Source: Gaiellaceae bacterium
GTDB lineage: Bacteria; Actinomycetota; Thermoleophilia; Gaiellales; Gaiellaceae
Assembly: GCA_030446625.1 (NCBI GenBank)
Contig: JAUJMY010000003.1
Span: 1-64,000, forward strand
Direction of reading: 5' to 3'
Length of the DNA: 64,000 bases
Below, in pieces: positions 22,999 through 34,000 of the stretch. Under the pieces are notes generated by a model, which was given only the letters and a program-made list of their open reading frames with translations, had not been told where the DNA came from and did not search any database. How positions within the stretch are numbered: the stretch's first letter is position 1; each line of letters opens with the position of its first letter. Position numbers and translations under genes: made by a program.

Positions 22999-23038
22999 CA
23001 AGTACCCCCGGTCGCGCGCGTCGGACGCTCAGACTCTA

Positions 23039-23052
23039 ACGACTAGAGTCGT
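23039..23052. promoter_or_regulatory. palindrome over a leaderless -10 box
   Basis: ACGACT-AG-AGTCGT: 6-bp inverted arms overlapping TAGAGT (23044-23049), a TANNNT box 6 nt before ATG 23056. A regulator bound here would cover the promoter. Confidence 0.4.
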
Positions 23053-23055
23053 GGC

Positions 23056-23661
23056 ATGGCCGCCGACGCCTTCGCCCACGACCGGTTCCTCGTCGAGCAG
23101 CTCGTCCGGCCGCTCGTGAACCTGTACCAGGTGACGCCGCTGGGCGCGGACGACGCGCCGGCGGGCGGCCCCGTCGCGTTCGTGCGTCAGAAGCGGATGG
23201 CGATCAAGGAGGACATCCGCTTCTTCGCCGACGAGGGCGAGCGCGAGGAGCTCTTCCGGATCAAGGCGCGCAGCATGTTCGAGGTCGGCGGCCGCTACGA
23301 CGTGACGACGCCCACCGGCGAGCGGATCGGCGTCCTCGAGAAGGTCTTCGCGCGCTCGCTGCTGCGCTCGACGTGGCGCATGCTCGGCCCCGCCGAGGAG
23401 GAGCTTGCCGTGGCGGAGGAGCGGAGCGTCCCGCTCGCTCTGCTCCGGCGCGTGATCGACCTCGTCCCGTACGGCGAGCTGATCCCGATCGTCTTCCACT
23501 TCAACATCCGCCGTGGCGACGAGCCCCTCGGCGAGCTGACGCGGGCGTGGGGGCTGCGCGACCGCTACACGCTCGACCTGTCCGGCGAGCTCGAGCGGAC
23601 GATTGACCGGCGACTCGGAATCGCGCTCGCGATCGCGCTCGACGCTCTCCAGAGCCGCTGA
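23056..23661 (+). CDS. LURP-one/phospholipid-scramblase-like beta-barrel protein
   Basis: 201 residues. The pattern of strands (VAFVRQKRMAIKEDIRFFADE, LFRIKARSMFEVGGRYDVTTPTG, ERIGVLEKVF) matches the LURP1-related/Tubby-like family (DUF567). Members are cytosolic or membrane-associated 12-stranded barrels of uncertain function. No signal peptide. Its stop overlaps the next ATG (TGATG), so it forms a two-gene unit with the zinc-ribbon protein. Confidence 0.75.
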   Translation: MAADAFAHDRFLVEQLVRPLVNLYQVTPLGADDAPAGGPVAFVRQKRMAIKEDIRFFADEGEREELFRIKARSMFEVGGRYDVTTPTGERIGVLEKVFARSLLRSTWRMLGPAEEELAVAEERSVPLALLRRVIDLVPYGELIPIVFHFNIRRGDEPLGELTRAWGLRDRYTLDLSGELERTIDRRLGIALAIALDALQSR

Positions 23662-23936
23662 TGGCGAAGCCGAAGACGAACTGGATCCGCGAGGAGCGGC
23701 GCAAGGTGCTCGGCGACTGGGCCGCGTTCTGCGTCCGCTGCGGCGCCGTGCGGCGCTGGTTCGAGGAGCTCGAGCACGAGGTTCCGGCCGCGTGCACGCA
23801 GTGTGGTGGCGAGATGCGGCGGCGCTGCCCCGCTTGCACCGCGCCCTTCTCGTCGGCGTTCGCCGTCGAGTGCGAGGAGTGCGACGCGCCGCTGCGCCCG
23901 AACGAGCTCTTCGGGTCGCCGATCCACAAGACGTAG
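23661..23936 (+). CDS. zinc-ribbon protein with four CxxC pairs
   Basis: 91 residues. Eight cysteines occur in four CxxC pairs: CVRC near residue 24, CTQC near 45, CPAC near 54 and CEEC near 70. They should bind two zinc ions. N-terminal basic segment KPKTNWIREERRKV. Family unknown; coupled to the LURP-like gene by a 1-nt overlap, so the two products may act together. It converges on hisIE. Confidence 0.7.
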   Translation: MAKPKTNWIREERRKVLGDWAAFCVRCGAVRRWFEELEHEVPAACTQCGGEMRRRCPACTAPFSSAFAVECEECDAPLRPNELFGSPIHKT

Positions 23937-23974
23937 CACGAGCTGTCGCCGCGAGCCGCGCGGCGCCCGCTCCG

Positions 23975-24520
23975 TCACCGCTCGCGCCGGGCCAGCTCAC
24001 GTTCGACCGCCGCGACGTCGAGGCCGCGCGCGGCCAGCAGCACGTACGTGTGGAAGACGAGGTCGGCGATCTCCGAGACGAGACGTTCGTCGCTCTCGCC
24101 GACTGCCGCGAGCGCAGCCTCGAGCCCCTCTTCCCCGACCTTCCGCGCGCACGCGCCGACGCCGTCGTCGAGCAGCTGCGCCACGTACGACCCCTCCGGC
24201 CGTGTCAGCGCGCGCTCGGCGACGGTGCGCCACAGCGCCGGCGCGAAGCACGACGCGGAGCCGGTGTGGCACGCAGCCCCGCCGGCGCGGACGCGAAGGA
24301 GAATCGCGTCGCCGTCGCAGTCCTCGCGCAGCTCCTCGATGGCAAGCGTGTTGCCCGAGGTCTCCCCCTTTCGCCAGAGGCGGCGGCGCGATCGACTCCA
24401 GAAGTGCGCCTCGCCGGTCTCCCGCGTGAGGCGCAGCGCGTCGTCGTCCATCCACGCGAGCATCAGCACCTGCTCGGTCGCGGCGTCCTGGACGATCGCA
24501 GCGCGAAGCTCAGGCTGCAT
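23975..24520 (-). CDS. hisIE: bifunctional phosphoribosyl-AMP cyclohydrolase / phosphoribosyl-ATP pyrophosphatase
   Basis: 181 residues from ATG 24520. Residues 1-105 are His[37 protein letters not shown], and the zinc-site C-terminal block [13 protein letters not shown]. Residues about 115-181 are HisE ([21 protein letters not shown] and [15 protein letters not shown]). It carries out steps 2 and 3 of histidine synthesis. It is the last gene of the his operon and overlaps the end of hisF by 11 bp. Confidence 0.94.
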
Positions 24521-25253
24521 CGCGGAGCGGGACGTCGAGGTCGGCGAGCTCCCGGCGCAGCTCCCGCAGACGGTCACGGCGCTCGTGGAGGATCGACGCG
24601 AGGAGCGCCGCCTGCGCCACCTCGAGCACCGCGGCGACGTGTGCCGCCGTCCCGGCGCCGCCCGAGGCGACGACCGGCACGTCGACCGCGTCGGCGACCG
24701 CGCGCGTCAGCCTCAGGTCGTAGCCGCGGCGCGTGCCGTCGGCGTCGATCGACGTGAGCAGGATCTCGCCGGCGCCGCGCGCGGCGGCCTCCACCGCCCA
24801 CTCGACGGCACTGCGTCCCGTGGCTCCGGTTCCGGCGCGCGAACGAACGCGCCCGGCTTCGGCGTCGATCGCCACGACGACCGCTTGCGATCCCACGGCC
24901 ACGGCGAGCTCTTCGATCAGCGCGGGCCGCTCGAGCGCGGCGCTGTTGACCGTGACCTTGTCGGCGCCCGCGGCGAGCAGCCGAAGCGCGTCGGCCACGC
25001 TGCGGACGCCGCCGCCCACGGTCAGGGGGATCGAGACGCGGTTCGCCACCCGCTCGACGAGCGCGTCGAGCGTCGCGCGTCCTTCCAGCGTCGCGGTGAC
25101 GTCGAGGAACACGAGCTCGTCCGCGCCGGCGTCGGAGTAGTGCGCGGCGAGCGAGACCGCGTCGCCGGCATCGCGAAGCCCGCGGAAGCGGACGCCCTTG
25201 ACGACGCGGCCGCCGGCGACGTCGAGGCACGGGATCAGCCGGGGAAGAGGCAT
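24510..25253 (-). CDS. hisF: imidazole glycerol phosphate synthase, cyclase subunit
   Basis: 247 residues, a TIM barrel. [19 protein letters not shown] supplies the first catalytic Asp and [13 protein letters not shown] the second; phosphate-binding loops GGGVRS and ASGGAG are present. It uses ammonia from HisH to make IGP and AICAR. Starts 18 bp inside hisH and ends inside hisIE, consistent with coupled translation. Confidence 0.96.
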
Positions 25254-25771
25254 CGCTCCAGGTAGCGTGCGCCCGCGGCGCCGCTCTTCTCGGGGTGGAA
25301 CTGCACGCCGACGAAGCTTCCGCTCCGCGCCTCGGCGACGATCCCTTCGGCGTACGCCGTCGCCGCCGGCGTCTCGACCGCGTACGAGTGCGCGAAGTAG
25401 AACGCGTCGCCGATCGGCTCGACGCGGCTCCAGCCCATTCGCGGCACGCGCCCGGATCGGAGGCGCGCCGCGCGGCCGGGCAGGAGCCCGAGCCCGCGGA
25501 CGCCTCCATCCTCTTCCGTCTCCTCCAGTGCGAGCTGGAGGCCGAGGCAGATCCCGAGCACCGGCCGTCTCTCGGCGACCCGCTTCCGGAGGACGGCGTC
25601 GAGCCCTTGCTCGCGGAGGGCCGACATCGCGCTGCGAGCCGAGCCGACACCCGGCAGCACGGCCAGATCCGCGGCCTCCGCGTCGTCGACGAGCTGTGCG
25701 CCGAGCCGCCGCAGCGCAGTCGAGACCGAGCGGACGTTGCCCGCGCCGTAGTCGCAGATCGCGACTCTCAA
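25235..25771 (-). CDS. hisH: imidazole glycerol phosphate synthase, glutamine amidotransferase subunit
   Basis: 178 residues, slightly short for HisH (about 200). The nucleophile is Cys in [11 protein letters not shown]; His and Glu are in [10 protein letters not shown]; the N terminus is [15 protein letters not shown]. The start is TTG 25771, overlapping the stop of hisCB as TTGA; no better start exists near the family N terminus. It supplies ammonia to HisF. Confidence 0.94.
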
Positions 25772-27297
25772 AGGCGTCCCTTCGTCGACGGGACGCCGCC
25801 GCTCGCGGATGTCGCGACAGCGCTGCGCAGCGCGCGGCCCACGGCCTTGAACGCCGCCTCGGCTGTGTGGTGAGCGTCCCGCCCGCGCGAATCGGCGTGA
25901 ACCGCAAGCCGGCCCGCCTGCGCGAAGCTGCAGAGCACGTGCCGCGCGAGCTCGTCGGGCGGATCGAGGTCGACCTCGGCCCACGGCCGTCCGCCGAGAT
26001 CCACGGCTGCGCGTGCGAGCGCCTCGTCCATCGGGACGACCGCGTCTCCGTAGCGCGCGATTCCGGCGCGGTCGCCCAGCGCCCGCGAAACGGCCTCGCC
26101 CAACGCGAGCGCCGCGTCCTCCGTCGCGTGGTGGGGACCGTTCTCCGTATCGCCGTCGCCTTCGAGGACGAGGTCGAACCCGGCGTGGAAGGCGAGCTGC
26201 TCGAGGAAGTGGTCGTACAGGCCCGCGCCCGTCGCGACGCGGACGCAGCGCGGCCCGTCGAGACCGAGGCGGACGCGCTGGCGCGTCTCGGCGGTTGCGC
26301 GCACGTGACGCACGCGGCGCGCCTGTGGTCGCGTCGCCGGCGCACCGCCTCTCGCACGGGCGAGGGCATCGAGCAGGAGGTCGTCGTCCTCGCGGTCGCG
26401 GATGCTGACCCGTAGCGCGCCGTCGAACACCCGCACGACGAGCCCGGCGCGCAGGAGCTGGTCGCCGAGCTGGCCGGCGTCCGGGGTCGGGACGTACAGG
26501 AAGTTCGCGGAGGAGGGGAGCGGCGGGAGACCCAGTGCGCGCAGCTCGCCGGCCACGCGCTCGCGCTCCGCGACCTGTGCCGCGACGTCCGGCGGCTGCG
26601 ACAGCGCGGCGACCGCGAGCGCCGCCGAGAGCGTCGAGATCGGCGCGGGCGCCTGCCGCCGCCGGAGCTCGTCCGCGACGTCCGGCGCTGCGAGCGCGTA
26701 CCCGACGCGCGCGCCCGCGAGCGCGAACGCCTTCGAGAGCGTCCGCACGACGACGATCCCGTCGTCGAGCGCGGCCGCCGCCGTGACGCCCGCGTACTCG
26801 AAGTACGCCTCGTCGACGACGAGCGGGCGCACGGCGGGCAGCTCACCGACCTCTCCGGTCGGGTTGTTCGGGCGGCACGCGAACGCGAAGGCGGGATCCT
26901 CGTCGCCGACGTCCGCCCCCGCCAGTTCGACCGCGATGCGAAAGAGCGGATACGTCGGCGCCGCGGGTATCGCGGCCGCGTCGCCCGGGCCGGCGAAGGA
27001 GCGGGCGCAGAGCAGGATCAGGTCGTCCGCACCCGCGCCGAGCACCACGTTCGCCGGCTCCACTCCCGCGTACTCCGCCAACGCGCGCTCGAGGTCCGCG
27101 TAGCCGCCGTGCGGGTACGTGTTGATCTCCGCGAGCGTGGACGCGATCGCGGCCGGTCGCGAGGACGGAAGCGGCGCCGCAGGCACGTTCCCGTCGAACC
27201 GGACGATCTCGACCGCATCGAGGCCGGCGCGCCGCGCGAGCTCCTCCGTCGACGGCGCCCACCGGTACGCCGCGAACTCTGCCGGCAGCGTCCTCAC
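25768..27297 (-). CDS. HisC-HisB fusion: histidinol-phosphate aminotransferase + IGP dehydratase
   Basis: 509 residues in one uninterrupted frame from GTG 27297, which overlaps the hisD stop (GTGA). Residues 1 to about 320 are a complete His[17 protein letters not shown], and the PLP lysine in [18 protein letters not shown] short Arg/Pro linker ([19 protein letters not shown]) leads to a complete HisB dehydratase: [15 protein letters not shown], the metal-binding [13 protein letters not shown] and [17 protein letters not shown]. HisC and HisB catalyse non-consecutive steps (7 and 6), so fusion would channel imidazole-acetol phosphate. In-frame GTGs at 26313 and 26304 could also start a separate HisB; no Shine-Dalgarno is seen there. 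Confidence 0.92.
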
Positions 27298-28313
27298 CGG
27301 CGCACCGACTCGGCGTGCGCGGGCATCCCTTCGGCCGCGGCGAGCGCCTCGACCACCGGCCGCAGCCGCGCAAGTGCCTCCGGCGTCAGCCTCTGCACCG
27401 TCAACGGCTTGAGGAACGATTCGAGCCCGAGGCCGCCGACCGCGCGCGCCCAGCCCCCGGTCGGCAGCACGTGGTTTCCACCCGTCGCGTAGTCGCCCGC
27501 AGCGACCGGCGAGTCCCGCCCGACGAAAACGGCGCCGGCGTGCCGCACGCGCGGCGCGAGCGACTCGGCGCGACGGCCGAGCAGGACGAGGTGCTCCGGC
27601 GCGATCGCGTCGATCTCGGCGAGTGCCGCCTCGAGGTCTTCTCCCGCGCGGACGACGCGGCAGACGGTGCCGGGGCCGTGCTCGGCCTGCGCCGCGAGCT
27701 CGAGCTCGGCGACGCCGGCCTCCGCCGACTCGTCCGTCAGCACGACGACCTCGGAGGGGCCTGCCGGGAGGTCGATCGCCACGTCGCGGGAGACGATCAG
27801 CTTCGCCTCGTTGACGTACGCGTTGCCGGGCCCGACGATCTTCGCGACGCGCGGGATCGAGTCGGTCCCGTACGCGAGCGCGGCGATCGCGTGCGCGCCT
27901 CCGACCGCCCAGACGTCCTCCAGCCCGAGGAGGCGCGCCGTCGCCGCCACGAGCCCGGCGCCGTCGGGCGGCGTCACGACGACGATCCGCTCCACGCCTG
28001 CGGCCTGCGCGGGTACCGCGCACATGACGAGGGTCGAGAGCAGCCTGCGCGGCACGTAGATGCCGACGGATGCGACGGCGGTCCAGCGGCGGGCGAGCTC
28101 GACGCCGGGGCTCACCTCGAGGCGCACGTCGGCCGGCCGCTGTGCCTCGTGCCACCGACGCACCGCGCCCGCCAGCGCGAGCACCGCGTCCCGCGGCGGC
28201 TCGCCTGCGGGCTGAGCGAGCGCCGGGGCGACACCGTCCAACCGCAGCGCCCACTCCCGAACGGCGTCGTCGCCGCGCGACCGCACGTCGTCGACGATCT
28301 CCGCAACGGTCAC
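27294..28313 (-). CDS. hisD: histidinol dehydrogenase, short form
   Basis: 339 residues, about 90 fewer than usual; the N-terminal helical region is reduced, beginning at TVAEIVDDVRSRGDDAV. Catalytic residues are kept: QAEHGP (zinc Gln and His), APEHLVL (Glu-His pair), GDYATGGNHVLPTGG (zinc Asp), and the final zinc His in EGMPAHAES. It oxidises histidinol to histidine with two NAD+. GTG 28313 overlaps the hisG stop as GTGA. An upstream in-frame start would lie deep inside hisG, so the shortening seems real. Confidence 0.93.
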   Translation of the reverse strand: MTVAEIVDDVRSRGDDAVREWALRLDGVAPALAQPAGEPPRDAVLALAGAVRRWHEAQRPADVRLEVSPGVELARRWTAVASVGIYVPRRLLSTLVMCAVPAQAAGVERIVVVTPPDGAGLVAATARLLGLEDVWAVGGAHAIAALAYGTDSIPRVAKIVGPGNAYVNEAKLIVSRDVAIDLPAGPSEVVVLTDESAEAGVAELELAAQAEHGPGTVCRVVRAGEDLEAALAEIDAIAPEHLVLLGRRAESLAPRVRHAGAVFVGRDSPVAAGDYATGGNHVLPTGGWARAVGGLGLESFLKPLTVQRLTPEALARLRPVVEALAAAEGMPAHAESVRR

Positions 28314-29149
28314 GCGATCATCCGTTCGACGGGAACGAGCAGGATCGACGACGCGCCTGCAGCCTCCAGCTGCGGAAGCACGTCCCAGACGTCCGCCGCC
28401 GAGACGAGCGCGTGCACCGCGACCATCCCCGGCTCGGCGAGCGGGAGCACCGTCGGCGCACGCGAGCCGGGCACGATGTCCCGGATCGCGTCGACCGCAG
28501 CCGCAGGCGCGTTCAGCATCAAGTACCGCGCGGAGCGCGCCGCGACGACGCTTCGCAGCACGGGCGCGAGCCGCAGCGCTGCCGGGTCCGGCTCGCGGCC
28601 GGCGATCAGCACGGCCTCCGACGCGAAGACGGCGCCCAGCGAGCGAAGCCCGTTCCGGCGGAGCGTGTCGCCGCTCGAGACGAGATCGACGATCCCGTCG
28701 GCGAGGCCGAGCCTCGGCGCGACCTCGACGGAACCCGTCACCTCGATCGTCTCGATCTCGACGCCGGCGGCGCCGAGTCCGGCCGCTGCCAGGCGCGGGT
28801 ACGACGTCGCAATCCGCAGGCCGTCCAGCTCCGCAAGCGAGCGCACGGTCGACTCTTGCGGCACTGCCGCGTCCAGGGTGCAGCCGCCGAAGCCGAGCCG
28901 GAGCAGCTCCGTCACCTGCACGGCGCGCTCCGCGACGAGGTCGGCGCCGGTGACTCCGCAGTCGACGACGCCGTCCTGTACGTACTCCGGAACGTCGGCG
29001 GCGCGCACGAGCAGGACCTCGATCGGCGCGTTGCGGCAGCGGATCGCGAGCGCGCGCTCGCCCGGCTCCTCCGGTCCGAGACCGGCCGCGTCGAGCAGCG
29101 CGATCGCCGGCTCGCGAAGCCGCCCCTTGGAGGGGATCGCGATCGTCAG
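28310..29149 (-). CDS. hisG: ATP phosphoribosyltransferase, long form
   Basis: 279 residues. First and committed step of histidine synthesis. TIAIPSKGRLREPA is the family N terminus; VVDCGVTGADLV and VDLVSSGDTLRRNGL form the PRPP site. The C-terminal domain (from about 205) is the regulatory HisG_C module that binds histidine in long-form enzymes, so no HisZ is needed. The only start near the conserved N terminus is CTG 29149, overlapping the yerC stop (CTGA); no ATG, GTG or TTG is in frame close by. Confidence 0.93.
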   Translation of the reverse strand: MTIAIPSKGRLREPAIALLDAAGLGPEEPGERALAIRCRNAPIEVLLVRAADVPEYVQDGVVDCGVTGADLVAERAVQVTELLRLGFGGCTLDAAVPQESTVRSLAELDGLRIATSYPRLAAAGLGAAGVEIETIEVTGSVEVAPRLGLADGIVDLVSSGDTLRRNGLRSLGAVFASEAVLIAGREPDPAALRLAPVLRSVVAARSARYLMLNAPAAAVDAIRDIVPGSRAPTVLPLAEPGMVAVHALVSAADVWDVLPQLEAAGASSILLVPVERMIA

Positions 29150-29454
29150 CGGCTGCGCGAGTCCGCCGGAAGGCGGTCGAGCGCCAGCCGGTAGCCGCCC
29201 TCGCCGTGCCGCAGCCAGTGCGCGACCCGCGTCACGGTCGTCGTCGACGCGCCCGTTCGCTCCCTGATCTGCCCGTAGGGAAGACCCTCGTCGAGCAGCC
29301 GGACCACCTGCCACCGGTGCGCCAGCGCCTCGAGCTCGTTCAGCGTGCAGAGGTCGCGGAAGAGCCGCTCCGCCTCCTCCCGCGTCTTGAGCCGCAGGAT
29401 CGCGTCCAGCAGCTCGTGCAGCGACTCGCTCCACGGATGTCGTTCCTCGTCCAT
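29146..29454 (-). CDS. TrpR-like regulator of the YerC/YecD family
   Basis: 102 residues. TrpR-type helix-turn-helix: LTREEAERLFRDLCTLNELEAL-like helices (as LKTREEAERLFRDLCTLNE), then the YGQIRERTGASTTTVTRV DNA-reading unit. Family members are small dimeric repressors responsive to an amino acid. Being first in the his operon, directly beside a 26-bp palindrome it overlaps, it is likely the autogenous histidine-pathway regulator. A tryptophan role cannot be excluded. Confidence 0.85.
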   Translation of the reverse strand: MDEERHPWSESLHELLDAILRLKTREEAERLFRDLCTLNELEALAHRWQVVRLLDEGLPYGQIRERTGASTTTVTRVAHWLRHGEGGYRLALDRLPADSRSR

Positions 29455-29458
29455 GATT

Positions 29459-29484
29459 CATCATGTTAGCATGTTAGCATGATG
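29459..29484. promoter_or_regulatory. divergent promoter/operator between yerC-hisG operon and hisA
   Basis: CATCATG and CATGATG arms enclose two direct copies of ATGTTAGC (29463-29470, 29471-29478). The repeats supply TAGCAT 6 nt before hisA ATG 29479 and, on the other strand, TAACAT 8 nt before yerC ATG 29454. Promoters in both directions and the likely YerC operator thus coincide within 26 bp. Confidence 0.6.
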
Positions 29485-30227
29485 GAACACGAGCCTCTCG
29501 TGATTCCCGCGGTCGACGTGCTCGCGGGCGAGGCCGTCCGGCTCGAGCGCGGCGACTTCGACCGTGTCGCCGTGAATGCAGGCGACCCGCTCGCGCTCGT
29601 ACGGCGCTTCGCCTCTGCAGGAGCGTCGCTCGTGCACGTCGTCGATCTCGACGGCGCGCGCCGAGGCGTGCTCGACCGGGAGCTCGTGGCGCACGCGGCG
29701 CGCGCGGCCTCCGATGTCCCGGTTCAGTTCTCGGGCGGGATCCGCTCCGTTGCGGACGCGCGCGCCGCGGTCGGCGCGGGGGCCGCTCGAATCCTCGTCG
29801 GCACCGCGGCGTTCTCGGCGCGCGTCCCTGATGGCGCGCCTCGTCGACGTGCTCGGGGAGCGGGTGGGCGTCGCCGTCGACGCGCGCGGGGGAGCGGTCG
29901 CGGTCGCCGGCTGGCGGCGGACCGCGCCGCTGGGACCGGAGCAGGCAGCGGGCCGCAGCCGCGGCGGCCGGAGTCTCGTTTCTGCTCTGCACGGCGATCG
30001 ACCGCGACGGCACCCTCGGCGGCCCGGACCTCGAGTTGCTCGCGCGCGTGCGCGACGCCGCGCCCACCGTGGCGATCCTGGCCGCCGGGGGCGTTCGCAC
30101 GCCCGACGACCTCGAGCGGATCGCGGGCCTCGGCCTCGCCGGCGCCGTCGTCGGGCGGGCGCTGCTGGACGGCTCGCTGCCGCTGTCGGTACTCGGCTCC
30201 GGGCCGGTCGGCGCGCTTAGGTCTTGA
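29479..30227 (+). pseudogene. hisA: hisA (ProFAR isomerase), two frameshifts
   Basis: The N-terminal half reads VIPAVDVLAGEAVRLERGDF (catalytic Asp) through GGIRSVADARAAVGAGAARILVG. Near 29822 the frame shifts to ARLVDVLGERVGVAVDARGG, and near 29945 again to GVSFLLCTAIDRDGTLGG (second Asp), then GGVRTPDDLERIAG to the end. Joined, these give a complete TIM barrel of about 245 residues. As hisA is the only copy seen and the pathway is otherwise complete here, sequence error is more likely than loss. ATG 29479 and 29482 are both possible starts. Confidence 0.85.
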
Positions 30228-30564
30228 TCTGCGAGAAGCGGATCAGCGTCACCGTGTCGTCCTCGCTGACCGCGCGGTTGTACAGCTGCCCGAGGAAGTG
30301 CGCCATCTCCTCCGTGCGCCTGATCTCGGGGTTGTCGTGCTCGATCTCGCGCGGCGAGAGCTCGCCGAGGCGCTTCACGTCCACCTTGTCGATCACCGCC
30401 TCGAACACCTTCTCGCGCGGGCTGTAGCGGACGCCGACGAGCACCTGCACGACCATGCCCTTCCGGTACTTCCCAGACTTGTCGCCGAGCCGGATCGTCG
30501 CCGTCTTCCGCCCCGTGCGCAGCTGGTCCGCGACGAGCGGCGAGTAGAAGTTCAGGGCTTCCAT
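30217..30564 (-). CDS. ASCH-domain protein
   Basis: 115 residues. ALNFYSPLVADQLRTGRKTATIRLGDKSGKY fits the ASCH/PUA-like fold, with the conserved TIR and a Lys-rich turn. ASCH proteins bind or process RNA or nucleosides; EVI-type N4-acetylcytidine amidohydrolases belong here, but the substrate is not determined. The 3' end overlaps the convergent hisA end by 11 bp. Confidence 0.75.
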   Translation of the reverse strand: MEALNFYSPLVADQLRTGRKTATIRLGDKSGKYRKGMVVQVLVGVRYSPREKVFEAVIDKVDVKRLGELSPREIEHDNPEIRRTEEMAHFLGQLYNRAVSEDDTVTLIRFSQIKT

Positions 30565-30577
30565 CGCGCGCGCAAGA

Positions 30578-31018
30578 TCATACGGCGTCCTCTTCGAGCG
30601 CCGCGACGGCTTTCTCGGCCACCTCGCGCTCGCCCTTGTACGCGAGCAATCGCGGCGCGTCCGCGAGCCGGAGCCAGCGCGCCTCGGCGACCTCGTGCCG
30701 GTGCTCCGGCGGCAGGTCGTCGATCCGTCCGCTCCGGTACTCGACGAGGTAGAAGCTCACCACCTTGAAGACGCGCTCTCCGGCCCAGGTGTAGACGTAG
30801 CGGACGTCGTCCAGCTTCCGGACGACGTCCCCGGTCACCCCCGTCTCCTCCGCAACCTCGCGCAGCGCGGTCGCCTCGGCGCTCTCGCCGCGCCCCACGA
30901 GCCCCTTCGGCAGCGCCCACGTCCCCTCCGGCTTTCCGGCCGGGCGGATGGCCGCGAGCGACCACGCGCCGCGCAGCCGACGCACCACGACCCCGCCTGC
31001 TGAGAACTCGCGCCGCAC
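30578..31018 (-). CDS. Nudix hydrolase
   Basis: 146 residues from GTG 31018. The Nudix box reads G-LVGRG-E-SAEATAL-REVAEETGV (about residues 39-61), with the metal-binding Glu pair intact. The N-terminal RREFSAGGVVVRR is typical of MutT/diadenosine-polyphosphate hydrolase-type members. It is 13 bp before the ASCH gene on the same strand, so the two may be co-transcribed nucleic-acid housekeeping enzymes. Confidence 0.88.
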   Translation of the reverse strand: MRREFSAGGVVVRRLRGAWSLAAIRPAGKPEGTWALPKGLVGRGESAEATALREVAEETGVTGDVVRKLDDVRYVYTWAGERVFKVVSFYLVEYRSGRIDDLPPEHRHEVAEARWLRLADAPRLLAYKGEREVAEKAVAALEEDAV

Positions 31019-31063
31019 GCGCGTCTTGTAACAGCGAGCGCGTAGCGACGTCCCCCGGTTGCC

Positions 31064-31091
31064 TTGCAGGGGGCTCGCGAGCGGGTTAAAC
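31064..31091 (+). promoter_or_regulatory. groESL promoter
   Basis: TTGCAG (31064-31069), 16-bp spacer, TTAAAC (31086-31091), directly followed by the CIRCE operator. This arrangement allows the repressor to block initiation. Confidence 0.55.
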
Positions 31092-31095
31092 TCGC

Positions 31096-31122
31096 CTGGC
31101 ACTCACACAACGAGAGTGCCAG
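31096..31122. promoter_or_regulatory. CIRCE operator (HrcA binding site)
   Basis: CTGGCACTC-N9-GAGTGCCAG, a perfect 9-9-9 inverted repeat matching the CIRCE element. HrcA bound here represses groESL until heat or unfolded protein titrates GroEL. hrcA itself is not in the window. Confidence 0.93.
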
Positions 31123-31158
31123 CAAGTGTCACAAAGTCGGGTTACGAGGAGGAAGTGC

Positions 31159-31470
31159 ATGAATCTGCAGCCGCTCGGAGACCGCCTGATCGTCGAGATC
31201 CTCGACGAGGAGGAGACGACGGTCAGCGGCATCGTCCTGCCGGACACGGCCAAGGAGAAGCCGCAGCGCGGACGCGTCCTCGCAGTCGGCCCCGGGTCGC
31301 GGGACGAGGACGGCGAGTACATCAAGATCGACCTCGAGGAGGGTGACGAGATCATCTTCTCCAAGTACGGCGGCACGGAGATCAAGGTCGGCGCCGACGA
31401 GGTCCTGATCCTGCGCGAGTCGGACGTCCTGGCGAAGGTCGTCGGAGACCGCGAGCTCGCTTCCGCGTAG
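31159..31470 (+). CDS. groES: co-chaperonin GroES
   Basis: 103 residues. Start ATG 31159 after RBS GAGGAGG gives the normal [20 protein letters not shown]. The mobile loop ([17 protein letters not shown]) and roof hairpin ([11 protein letters not shown]) are present. Caps GroEL during folding. First gene of groES-groEL, 30 bp before groEL. Confidence 0.98.
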
Positions 31471-31479
31471 TCGTACTAG

Positions 31480-33132
<1,653 letters not shown>

Positions 33133-33160
33133 GCAGCCTGCCCGGCTGCTCTGTGAGAGA

Positions 33161-33192
33161 GACGAAGGGCCGGCTCGCGCCGGCCCTTCGTC
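33161..33192 (+). terminator. terminator after groEL
   Basis: GACGAAGGGCCGGC/GCCGGCCCTTCGTC, 14-bp perfect stem, TCGC loop, followed by TGCTT. Confidence 0.8.
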
Positions 33193-33226
33193 TGCTTGGA
33201 GGACGACGGCGAGACGGCGGGTCAAC

Positions 33227-33256
33227 GAGAAGGGCGGCCTTGCGGCCGCCCTTCTC
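33227..33256. terminator. second hairpin, between groEL and the convergent molybdoenzyme gene
   Basis: GAGAAGGGCGGCC/GGCCGCCCTTCTC, 13-bp perfect stem with TTGC loop. With the preceding hairpin it separates two convergent units. The rest of 33257-33381 shows no gene. Confidence 0.65.
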
Positions 33257-33381
33257 ACCTCCCCGGCCGGGCGCGCTACGGCGTCCCGGGCGGGAACGTC
33301 TGGCCTGAGGTCTCCCGGCCATTACGCGGCCGATGGCCGGAGGGAAGTCAATACGCCGGGGAGCCAGAGGAGCGGCACGCG

Positions 33382-33987
33382 TCAGAACCCGTAGCGCTCC
33401 TCCTTCCAGAAGTCCGCCTCGTTGTGGTAGCCGTAGCGCTCCCAGAAGCCGGGCTGGTCGTGGTCGAGGAGCTCGATCCCGCGCAGCCACTTCGCGCTCT
33501 TCCAGAAGTACTTGCGCGGGATCACGAGGCGCAGCGGCCAGCCATGGTCGGGCGTGAGCGGTGCGCCGTCGGCCTCGTACGCGAGCAGCGCGTGCTCGTC
33601 CTCGAGGAACTCGAGCGGGAAGTTGGAGCTGAACCCCTGCTCGGCGTGCGCCACGACGAAGCGCGCGGTCGGCTTCGGGCGCACGAGGCTCGCGAGCTCG
33701 CGCCAGCGCACGCCGCGGAAGCTCGCGTCGAAGCGGCTCCAGCGTGTGACGCAGTGGATGTCGAGCGTGATCTCGCTCGCGGGGAGCGCGCGCAGCTGCT
33801 CCCACGTCAGCGTCAGTGGCTCCTCGACCTCGCCCCAGACCTTTAGGTCCCACGTCGCGAGGTCGACGTCCGGGACGCTGCCCGCGTGCAGCACCGGCCA
33901 CTTCTCGGTCAGGTACTGGCCGGGTGGGAGGCGGGCCGGGTCGTACCCCTTCTCCAGGACTTTCTGCTCGGCCTTGGAGCGGAACAC
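33382..33987 (-). CDS. molybdopterin-dependent oxidoreductase (sulfite oxidase-like fold)
   Basis: 201 residues from GTG 33987. The domain has DIHCVTRWSRFDASFRGVRW, whose Cys should bind the molybdenum, and a cofactor-binding DHGWPLRLVIPRKYFWKSAKW, as in YedY/SUOX-type proteins. No Tat signal or heme domain, so it is a stand-alone cytoplasmic catalytic domain. Substrate unknown. Leaderless: TAGTGT lies 7 nt before the start and shares bases with the ygfZ promoter. Confidence 0.85.
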   Translation of the reverse strand: MFRSKAEQKVLEKGYDPARLPPGQYLTEKWPVLHAGSVPDVDLATWDLKVWGEVEEPLTLTWEQLRALPASEITLDIHCVTRWSRFDASFRGVRWRELASLVRPKPTARFVVAHAEQGFSSNFPLEFLEDEHALLAYEADGAPLTPDHGWPLRLVIPRKYFWKSAKWLRGIELLDHDQPGFWERYGYHNEADFWKEERYGF

Positions 33988-33993
33988 GCTGCC

Positions 33994-34000
33994 TACACTA
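33994..34000. promoter_or_regulatory. overlapping bidirectional -10 boxes
   Basis: TACACTA gives TACACT on the plus strand (6 nt before GTG 34006) and TAGTGT on the minus strand (7 nt before GTG 33987). One 7-mer appears to serve two leaderless genes, so they compete for the same polymerase position. Confidence 0.5.

Follow-up and report, generated by a model that had tools for sequence, protein, structure and literature searches.

A palindrome between the divergent hisA and yerC genes of Gaiellales as a predicted HisR operator superposed on a putative two-way promoter

The window analyzed here, a stretch of 64,000 nucleotides from a Gaiellaceae bacterium, carries the usual genes of the histidine pathway in one place. 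On the reverse strand, yerC (29146..29454) is followed in order by hisG (28310..29149; PF01634 and PF08029), hisD (27294..28313; PF00815), hisC and hisB in a single uninterrupted reading frame (25768..27300; PF00155 and PF00475), hisH (25235..25771; PF00117), hisF (24510..25253; PF00977, 3e-71) and a hisI/hisE fusion (23975..24520; PF01502 and PF01503). On the forward strand, hisA (29479..30227) is transcribed away from yerC, with a leaderless-type start at ATG 29479 or 29482, and was identified by a split PF00977 match and by tblastn in three frames. It should be noted that two frameshifts (~29820-29835 and ~29955-29970) break the hisA of the window into three frames, whereas relatives have an intact gene; these correspond to either sequencing error or a pseudogene, so that the locus or its assembly is imperfect.

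The same gene order was found in related genomes. yerC is present in 35 of 61 relatives, and in all 30 yerC loci examined hisG adjoins yerC on the same strand and a divergent hisA lies on the other side (30/30); at one locus (L028), hisA is located ~0.7 kb away from yerC and is still divergent. A search for hisG in the 26 yerC-less relatives found none, and HisA/HisF gave no convincing match in those yerC-less Gaiellales that were checked; these genomes may be auxotrophic or may lack contigs, since the linked genes would all be lost with a single contig. The hisD genes found away from the cluster in some genomes had no hisA, hisG or yerC adjoining.

Our analysis also revealed several features of the structural genes. 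The start codon of hisG (CTG 29149) overlaps the yerC stop codon as CTGA (29146-29149, reverse strand), and an overlap of this type (CTGA, TTGA, GTGA or ATGA) is present in 23 of 56 Gaiellales loci, the first base being C in 17 of them, T in four, and G and A in one each. CTG therefore appears to be the standard hisG start, with translational coupling. There is no stop between the aminotransferase and IGPD domains of hisC-hisB, which may represent a fusion or an assembly error. Finally, HisD of the window (27300-28319) and of seven other genomes of the family matched PF00815 in two pieces, with ~40 profile positions (257-295) missing consistently across several Gaiellaceae.

The yerC gene encodes a 102 amino acid protein of the TrpR repressor family (PF01371, 2.7e-27) that corresponds to HisR. 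It scored above the cut-off of the TIGR02531 model (9e-26; 90.1 bits, cut-off 42.2) and below that of the TrpR equivalog TIGR01321 (28.3 bits, cut-off 67.25). Its nearest solved structures by sequence are 3kor, 3frw and 3g1c, and these HisR-type structures were also the best matches (E ~1e-5) to its AF2 (AlphaFold) model (pLDDT 91.8); the next-best matches were crystals of TrpR and of TrpR with its operator (1tro/1zt9, with 1trr among the matches), in agreement with a TrpR-type all-helical HTH fold. YerC of B. subtilis has been identified as the histidine repressor HisR, a member of the TrpR family, whose operator is a 20-bp dyad with the common consensus cacTTTAnnnnnnTAAAgtg and which is frequently autoregulated (Ashniev et al. 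2022, PMC9413887).

The region between hisA (ATG 29479) and yerC (ATG 29454) contains a 26-bp imperfect palindrome (29459..29484) that reads CATCATGTTAGCATGTTAGCATGATG, is self-complementary at 11 of 13 pairs and has perfect outer arms of 7 bp each (CATCATG/CATGATG). Two copies of ATGTTAGC lie within it (29463-29470 and 29471-29478), with just two others in the 2.71-Mb genome. The number of dyads this strong was not taken as evidence by itself, given that GC-rich dyads are commoner in the window (18 26-mers vs 8.5 +/- 3.0 in shuffles, mostly GC-rich hairpins). AT-rich dyads are rare: the palindrome has 16 A/T, and no 26-mer dyad with at least 15 A/T was found in 30 shuffles. Moreover, in a sequence that is 72% GC, this stretch ranks within the top 0.07% of 24-bp windows for A/T content. 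Within the palindrome, we predict a 20-bp HisR (YerC) operator (29462..29481), based on the information profile of 56 related loci, genome-wide pattern scans and the geometry of published HisR motifs (PMC9413887); its predicted core, TGTTAGCATGTTAGCA (29464-29479), has the same basis. The left half-site is TTAG (29466..29469), whose TA is invariant in the 56 loci, and the right half-site is also TTAG (29474..29477; consensus of relatives CTAA), in which T is found in 56/56 and A in 55/56 loci. From one half-site to the other, the TA steps are spaced by 8 bp.

The palindrome also holds promoter-like boxes for both genes. A TAGCAT box (29467..29472, forward strand) lies 6 nt before the hisA ATG, and a TAACAT box (29463..29468, reverse strand), identified by a TANNNT scan, lies 8 nt before the yerC ATG at 29454; the two opposed boxes overlap by 2 bp, a known layout of bidirectional promoters (PMC12825309). 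In-frame stop codons within the palindrome (TAG 29467-29469 for hisA and TGA 29460-29458 for yerC) rule out earlier starts, so that 29479 and 29482 are the sole possible hisA starts and the 24 bp between start codons is real. A TANNNT motif ~12 bp before the start codon is a signal of leaderless genes in high-GC Actinobacteria (PMC3160421), and a scan of the window for TANNNT-Nx-start fits this signal, with 7, 5, 6 and 4 cases at x = 6, 7, 8 and 9 (22 in total) and 2 cases in all at x = 3, 4, 5, 10 and 11. Among the 56 related loci, 31 have the hisA box at x = 6 and a further 18 have it at x = 9 (49/56 together), and the hisA start with this spacing is the sole in-frame start in 36. A TANNNT box for hisR is found at 5-9 nt in most loci where hisR starts near the dyad. 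The distance between start codons is 14-30 bp in most loci and 14-94 bp overall: it is exactly 20 bp, that is, the operator itself, in family f3, and only 14 bp in four loci (L021/L022/L088/L089). The ends of the L021 dyad, CATGTTAACATATTAACATG, hold both ATGs. In some relatives (e.g. L006, L012 and L077), hisR starts 46-94 bp from hisA, and its transcript would therefore have a leader.

To define the conserved element, we aligned without gaps the readable yerC loci of Gaiellales, 56 distinct ones in total. All of them carry a 20-bp dyad, caTGTTAGCATGCTAACAcg, at the equivalent place, located between yerC and a divergent hisA in nearly all cases. T(-8), T(-5), A(-4), C(-2) and T(+3) are present in 56/56 loci and A(+4) in 55/56, and nearly all the information content lies within ~20 bp, falling off beyond -10..+9. 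Since sites were chosen as the best match to a seed, part of this conservation is by construction, and the independent tests are the genome-wide scans and a negative set; the relatives are mostly MAGs, so that counts refer to sequences and not to independent events. These results confirm the palindrome and its two ATGTTAGC repeats between divergent hisA and yerC, as noted in a preliminary description, and the site is indeed conserved in relatives, but the key element is not the direct repeat proposed there: relatives mostly carry a true inverted repeat, TGTTAGCATGCTAACA, and the conserved form is the 20-bp dyad. The site of the window differs from the consensus at 2 of 16 core positions, both in the right half, and resembles a direct repeat because its right arm became TTAG, a degenerate version of the dyad that is also found in L026, L036 and L128.

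The genome-wide scans linked the site to yerC. A search of the 61 relatives allowing up to 2 mismatches identified 26 genomes with a site, all of them yerC-bearing, and every site save one additional one was located at the hisA-yerC locus. Across the class, yerC is present in 43 of 300 Thermoleophilia genomes, all but one of these Gaiellales, and near-matches at the yerC locus were detected in 29 of the 43; in the 257 genomes lacking yerC, a site was found anywhere in 8 (chance level) and adjoining hisA or hisG in none. About one third of the yerC-bearing genomes have sites with more than 2 mismatches, such as TGTTAACATAGTGGCA in L006. As a search for yerC-less Gaiellales with a his cluster, sought as a negative control, found none, other orders of Thermoleophilia served as the negative set. 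With the same seed, no site was detected upstream of hisA in 30 yerC-less Thermoleophilia (best scores 9-13 vs 14-20 at yerC loci), where hisA is mostly located directly behind coding sequence.

A TTA-N6-TAA dyad was also identified upstream of hisR in Lysobacterales, another gammaproteobacterium, Hyphomonadaceae, Clostridia and Acidimicrobiia. In family f2, the operators read TTTTAGCATGCTAAAA or close to it, with both arms shifted together toward the published HisR consensus; a search for an HTH-base recognition code distinguishing GTTA from TTTA arms gave no clear single-residue correlate. In addition, one genome outside Gaiellales (G304, family f11) carries both a Gaiellaceae-like yerC (66% identity) and the corresponding site, and its congener G305 has no yerC, which reflects either horizontal transfer or contamination.

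Some operators extend beyond the dyad. In 19 of the 56 loci, an additional TA step continues the 8-bp phase outward (on the left side in 9 and on the right in 11, compared with 0-5 at other spacings), making a third half-site that may allow the binding of tandem repressor dimers. Arrays of nTAn boxes at 8-bp spacing were observed in Gaiellales and Clostridia (five boxes in L086; also L078, L081, L083, L090, L104 and L107), a pattern that suggests tandem repressor binding. Tandem binding is known for TrpR. Regarding a wider regulon, sites were found upstream of an ANTAR regulator (G031 and G084), at moaC (G084) and in G090; none is claimed as a regulon member because such extra sites turn up about as often as chance hits do in yerC-less genomes and with a reversed-pattern control. 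In the ANTAR cases, from two species of one genus (L175 4114 in G031 and L173 1163 in G084), a HisR-like dyad is placed as a leaderless-type promoter of the response regulator, through either chance or regulon extension.

Taken together, these data make it very probable that the palindrome is the operator of YerC, a histidine-responsive HisR, superposed on the two-way promoter of hisA and hisR-hisGDCBHFIE, and that HisR with histidine shuts both. The dyad would give each strand a TANNNT -10 box 6-9 nt before a start codon, and the divergent transcripts driven from these boxes, hisA on the forward strand and hisR-hisGDCBHFIE on the reverse strand, would have no leader or almost none. At high histidine levels, the amino acid would serve as co-repressor and a HisR dimer would occupy the 20 bp, whose half-sites have the 8-bp spacing of trp operators; bound HisR would cover both -10 boxes, so that RNA polymerase could open neither promoter, and the biosynthetic genes and hisR itself would be shut off together. 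A drop in histidine would free the site and make both promoters available. The preliminary reading of the palindrome as a divergent promoter and probable YerC operator thus gains support, at the level of sequence, from the conserved dyad at yerC loci, its absence before hisA in yerC-less Thermoleophilia and its HisR geometry; the TANNNT boxes proposed for two divergent, predicted leaderless or near-leaderless genes are likewise supported by the box-to-start distances. Autogenous control of the pathway by a TrpR-like protein, also proposed there, agrees with the sequence data as well; the idea is not new in kind, since YerC was already known as HisR.

We considered that the dyad could instead be merely a symmetric two-way promoter with overlapping -10 boxes, in which case YerC would act at other sites or would not control his genes. 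Bacteria often have symmetric bidirectional -10 elements (PMC12825309), the TANNNT positions are among the most conserved, and similar leaderless-type promoters occur elsewhere, such as that upstream of the ANTAR regulator in G031 and G084. However, T(-8), C(-2), C(+6) and A(+7) are strongly conserved even though TANNNT does not need them, the same dyad lies upstream of hisR in Proteobacteria and Clostridia without a divergent hisA, it is absent before hisA in yerC-less relatives, and it matches published HisR operators (PMC9413887), making a promoter-only role unlikely. It is more doubtful still that YerC senses tryptophan or another ligand like a true TrpR: the fold family is the same and the model also matches TrpR-operator complexes, but YerC passes the TIGR02531 cut-off and falls far short of that of TIGR01321, its neighbors are all his genes, and histidine, which stimulates operator binding by R. 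gnavus HisR in vitro, is the most effective ligand of that protein (PMC9413887). Histidine rather than tryptophan is the likely co-repressor of Gaiellales YerC, as the site has the published HisR geometry (TTA-N6-TAA). Lastly, an RNA element (attenuator, T-box or hairpin leader) has hardly any likelihood and was dropped: T-boxes or attenuators are used at histidine genes elsewhere (PMC9413887), but there is no Rfam match in 23000-34000 and transcripts beginning at or near the start codon would have no leader in which to fold the repeat.

The HisR operator superposed on the his promoters can be compared with several known systems. The HisR regulon of Firmicutes, Coriobacteriia, Proteobacteria and Synergistetes shares with that of Gaiellales the protein family, a 20-bp TTA-N6-TAA dyad and, by prediction for Gaiellales, the his operon as target and autoregulation (PMC9413887). 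In that study, actinobacterial HisR came from Coriobacteriales and Eggerthellales only and was never clustered with his genes, whereas Gaiellales hisR is clustered, with hisA divergent. The Gaiellales operator has GTTA-N6-TAAC arms, as opposed to TTTA-N6-TAAA-like arms at equal geometry, and a conserved CATG center within the -10 boxes, whereas published HisR motifs have no conserved center (PMC9413887). E. coli TrpR and its trp operators resemble Gaiellales YerC in fold, HTH, 8-bp spacing of half-site TA steps and predicted autogenous control, and differ in operator letters and pathway, YerC scoring below the TrpR equivalog cut-off. Bidirectional promoters with shared -10 elements, such as acrA/acrR, also have opposed overlapping -10 boxes and a repressor divergent from its target (Warman et al.; PMC12825309), and their common start-to-start distance of 23 bp is close to the ~24 bp between the predicted starts of hisA/hisR; unlike in those promoters, operator and promoter would be the same ~20 bp in Gaiellales and both genes appear leaderless. 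The Gaiellales locus differs from the leaderless TANNNT genes described in Actinobacteria (PMC3160421) in having two such boxes that overlap, opposed and inside a predicted repressor site.

The new elements are the lineage, a hisA/hisR pair arranged divergently, the GTTAGCATGCTAAC consensus and an operator predicted to coincide with both -10 boxes and nearly both start codons. The HisR repressor itself is known in other bacteria; the compact arrangement and the Gaiellales lineage do not appear to have been described. On balance, we favor the view that the ~20-bp Gaiellales element combines the whole intergenic region, the HisR operator, both leaderless -10 boxes and, for some genera, a portion of the two start codons, and would thereby put an entire amino-acid pathway under a minimal switch that regulates itself.

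Gaiellales are soil and water actinobacteria that form a large, mostly uncultured order. Our analysis would extend the HisR regulon to this order, with promoter, operator and translation starts packed in one palindrome. As each base would have several jobs, natural variation across dozens of species (GTTA/TAAC vs TTTA/TAAA arms, extra half-sites and 14-94 bp between starts) constitutes a ready data set for separating the requirements of the polymerase from those of the repressor, and the hisA/hisR switch offers a testable case of how a leaderless bidirectional promoter is regulated.
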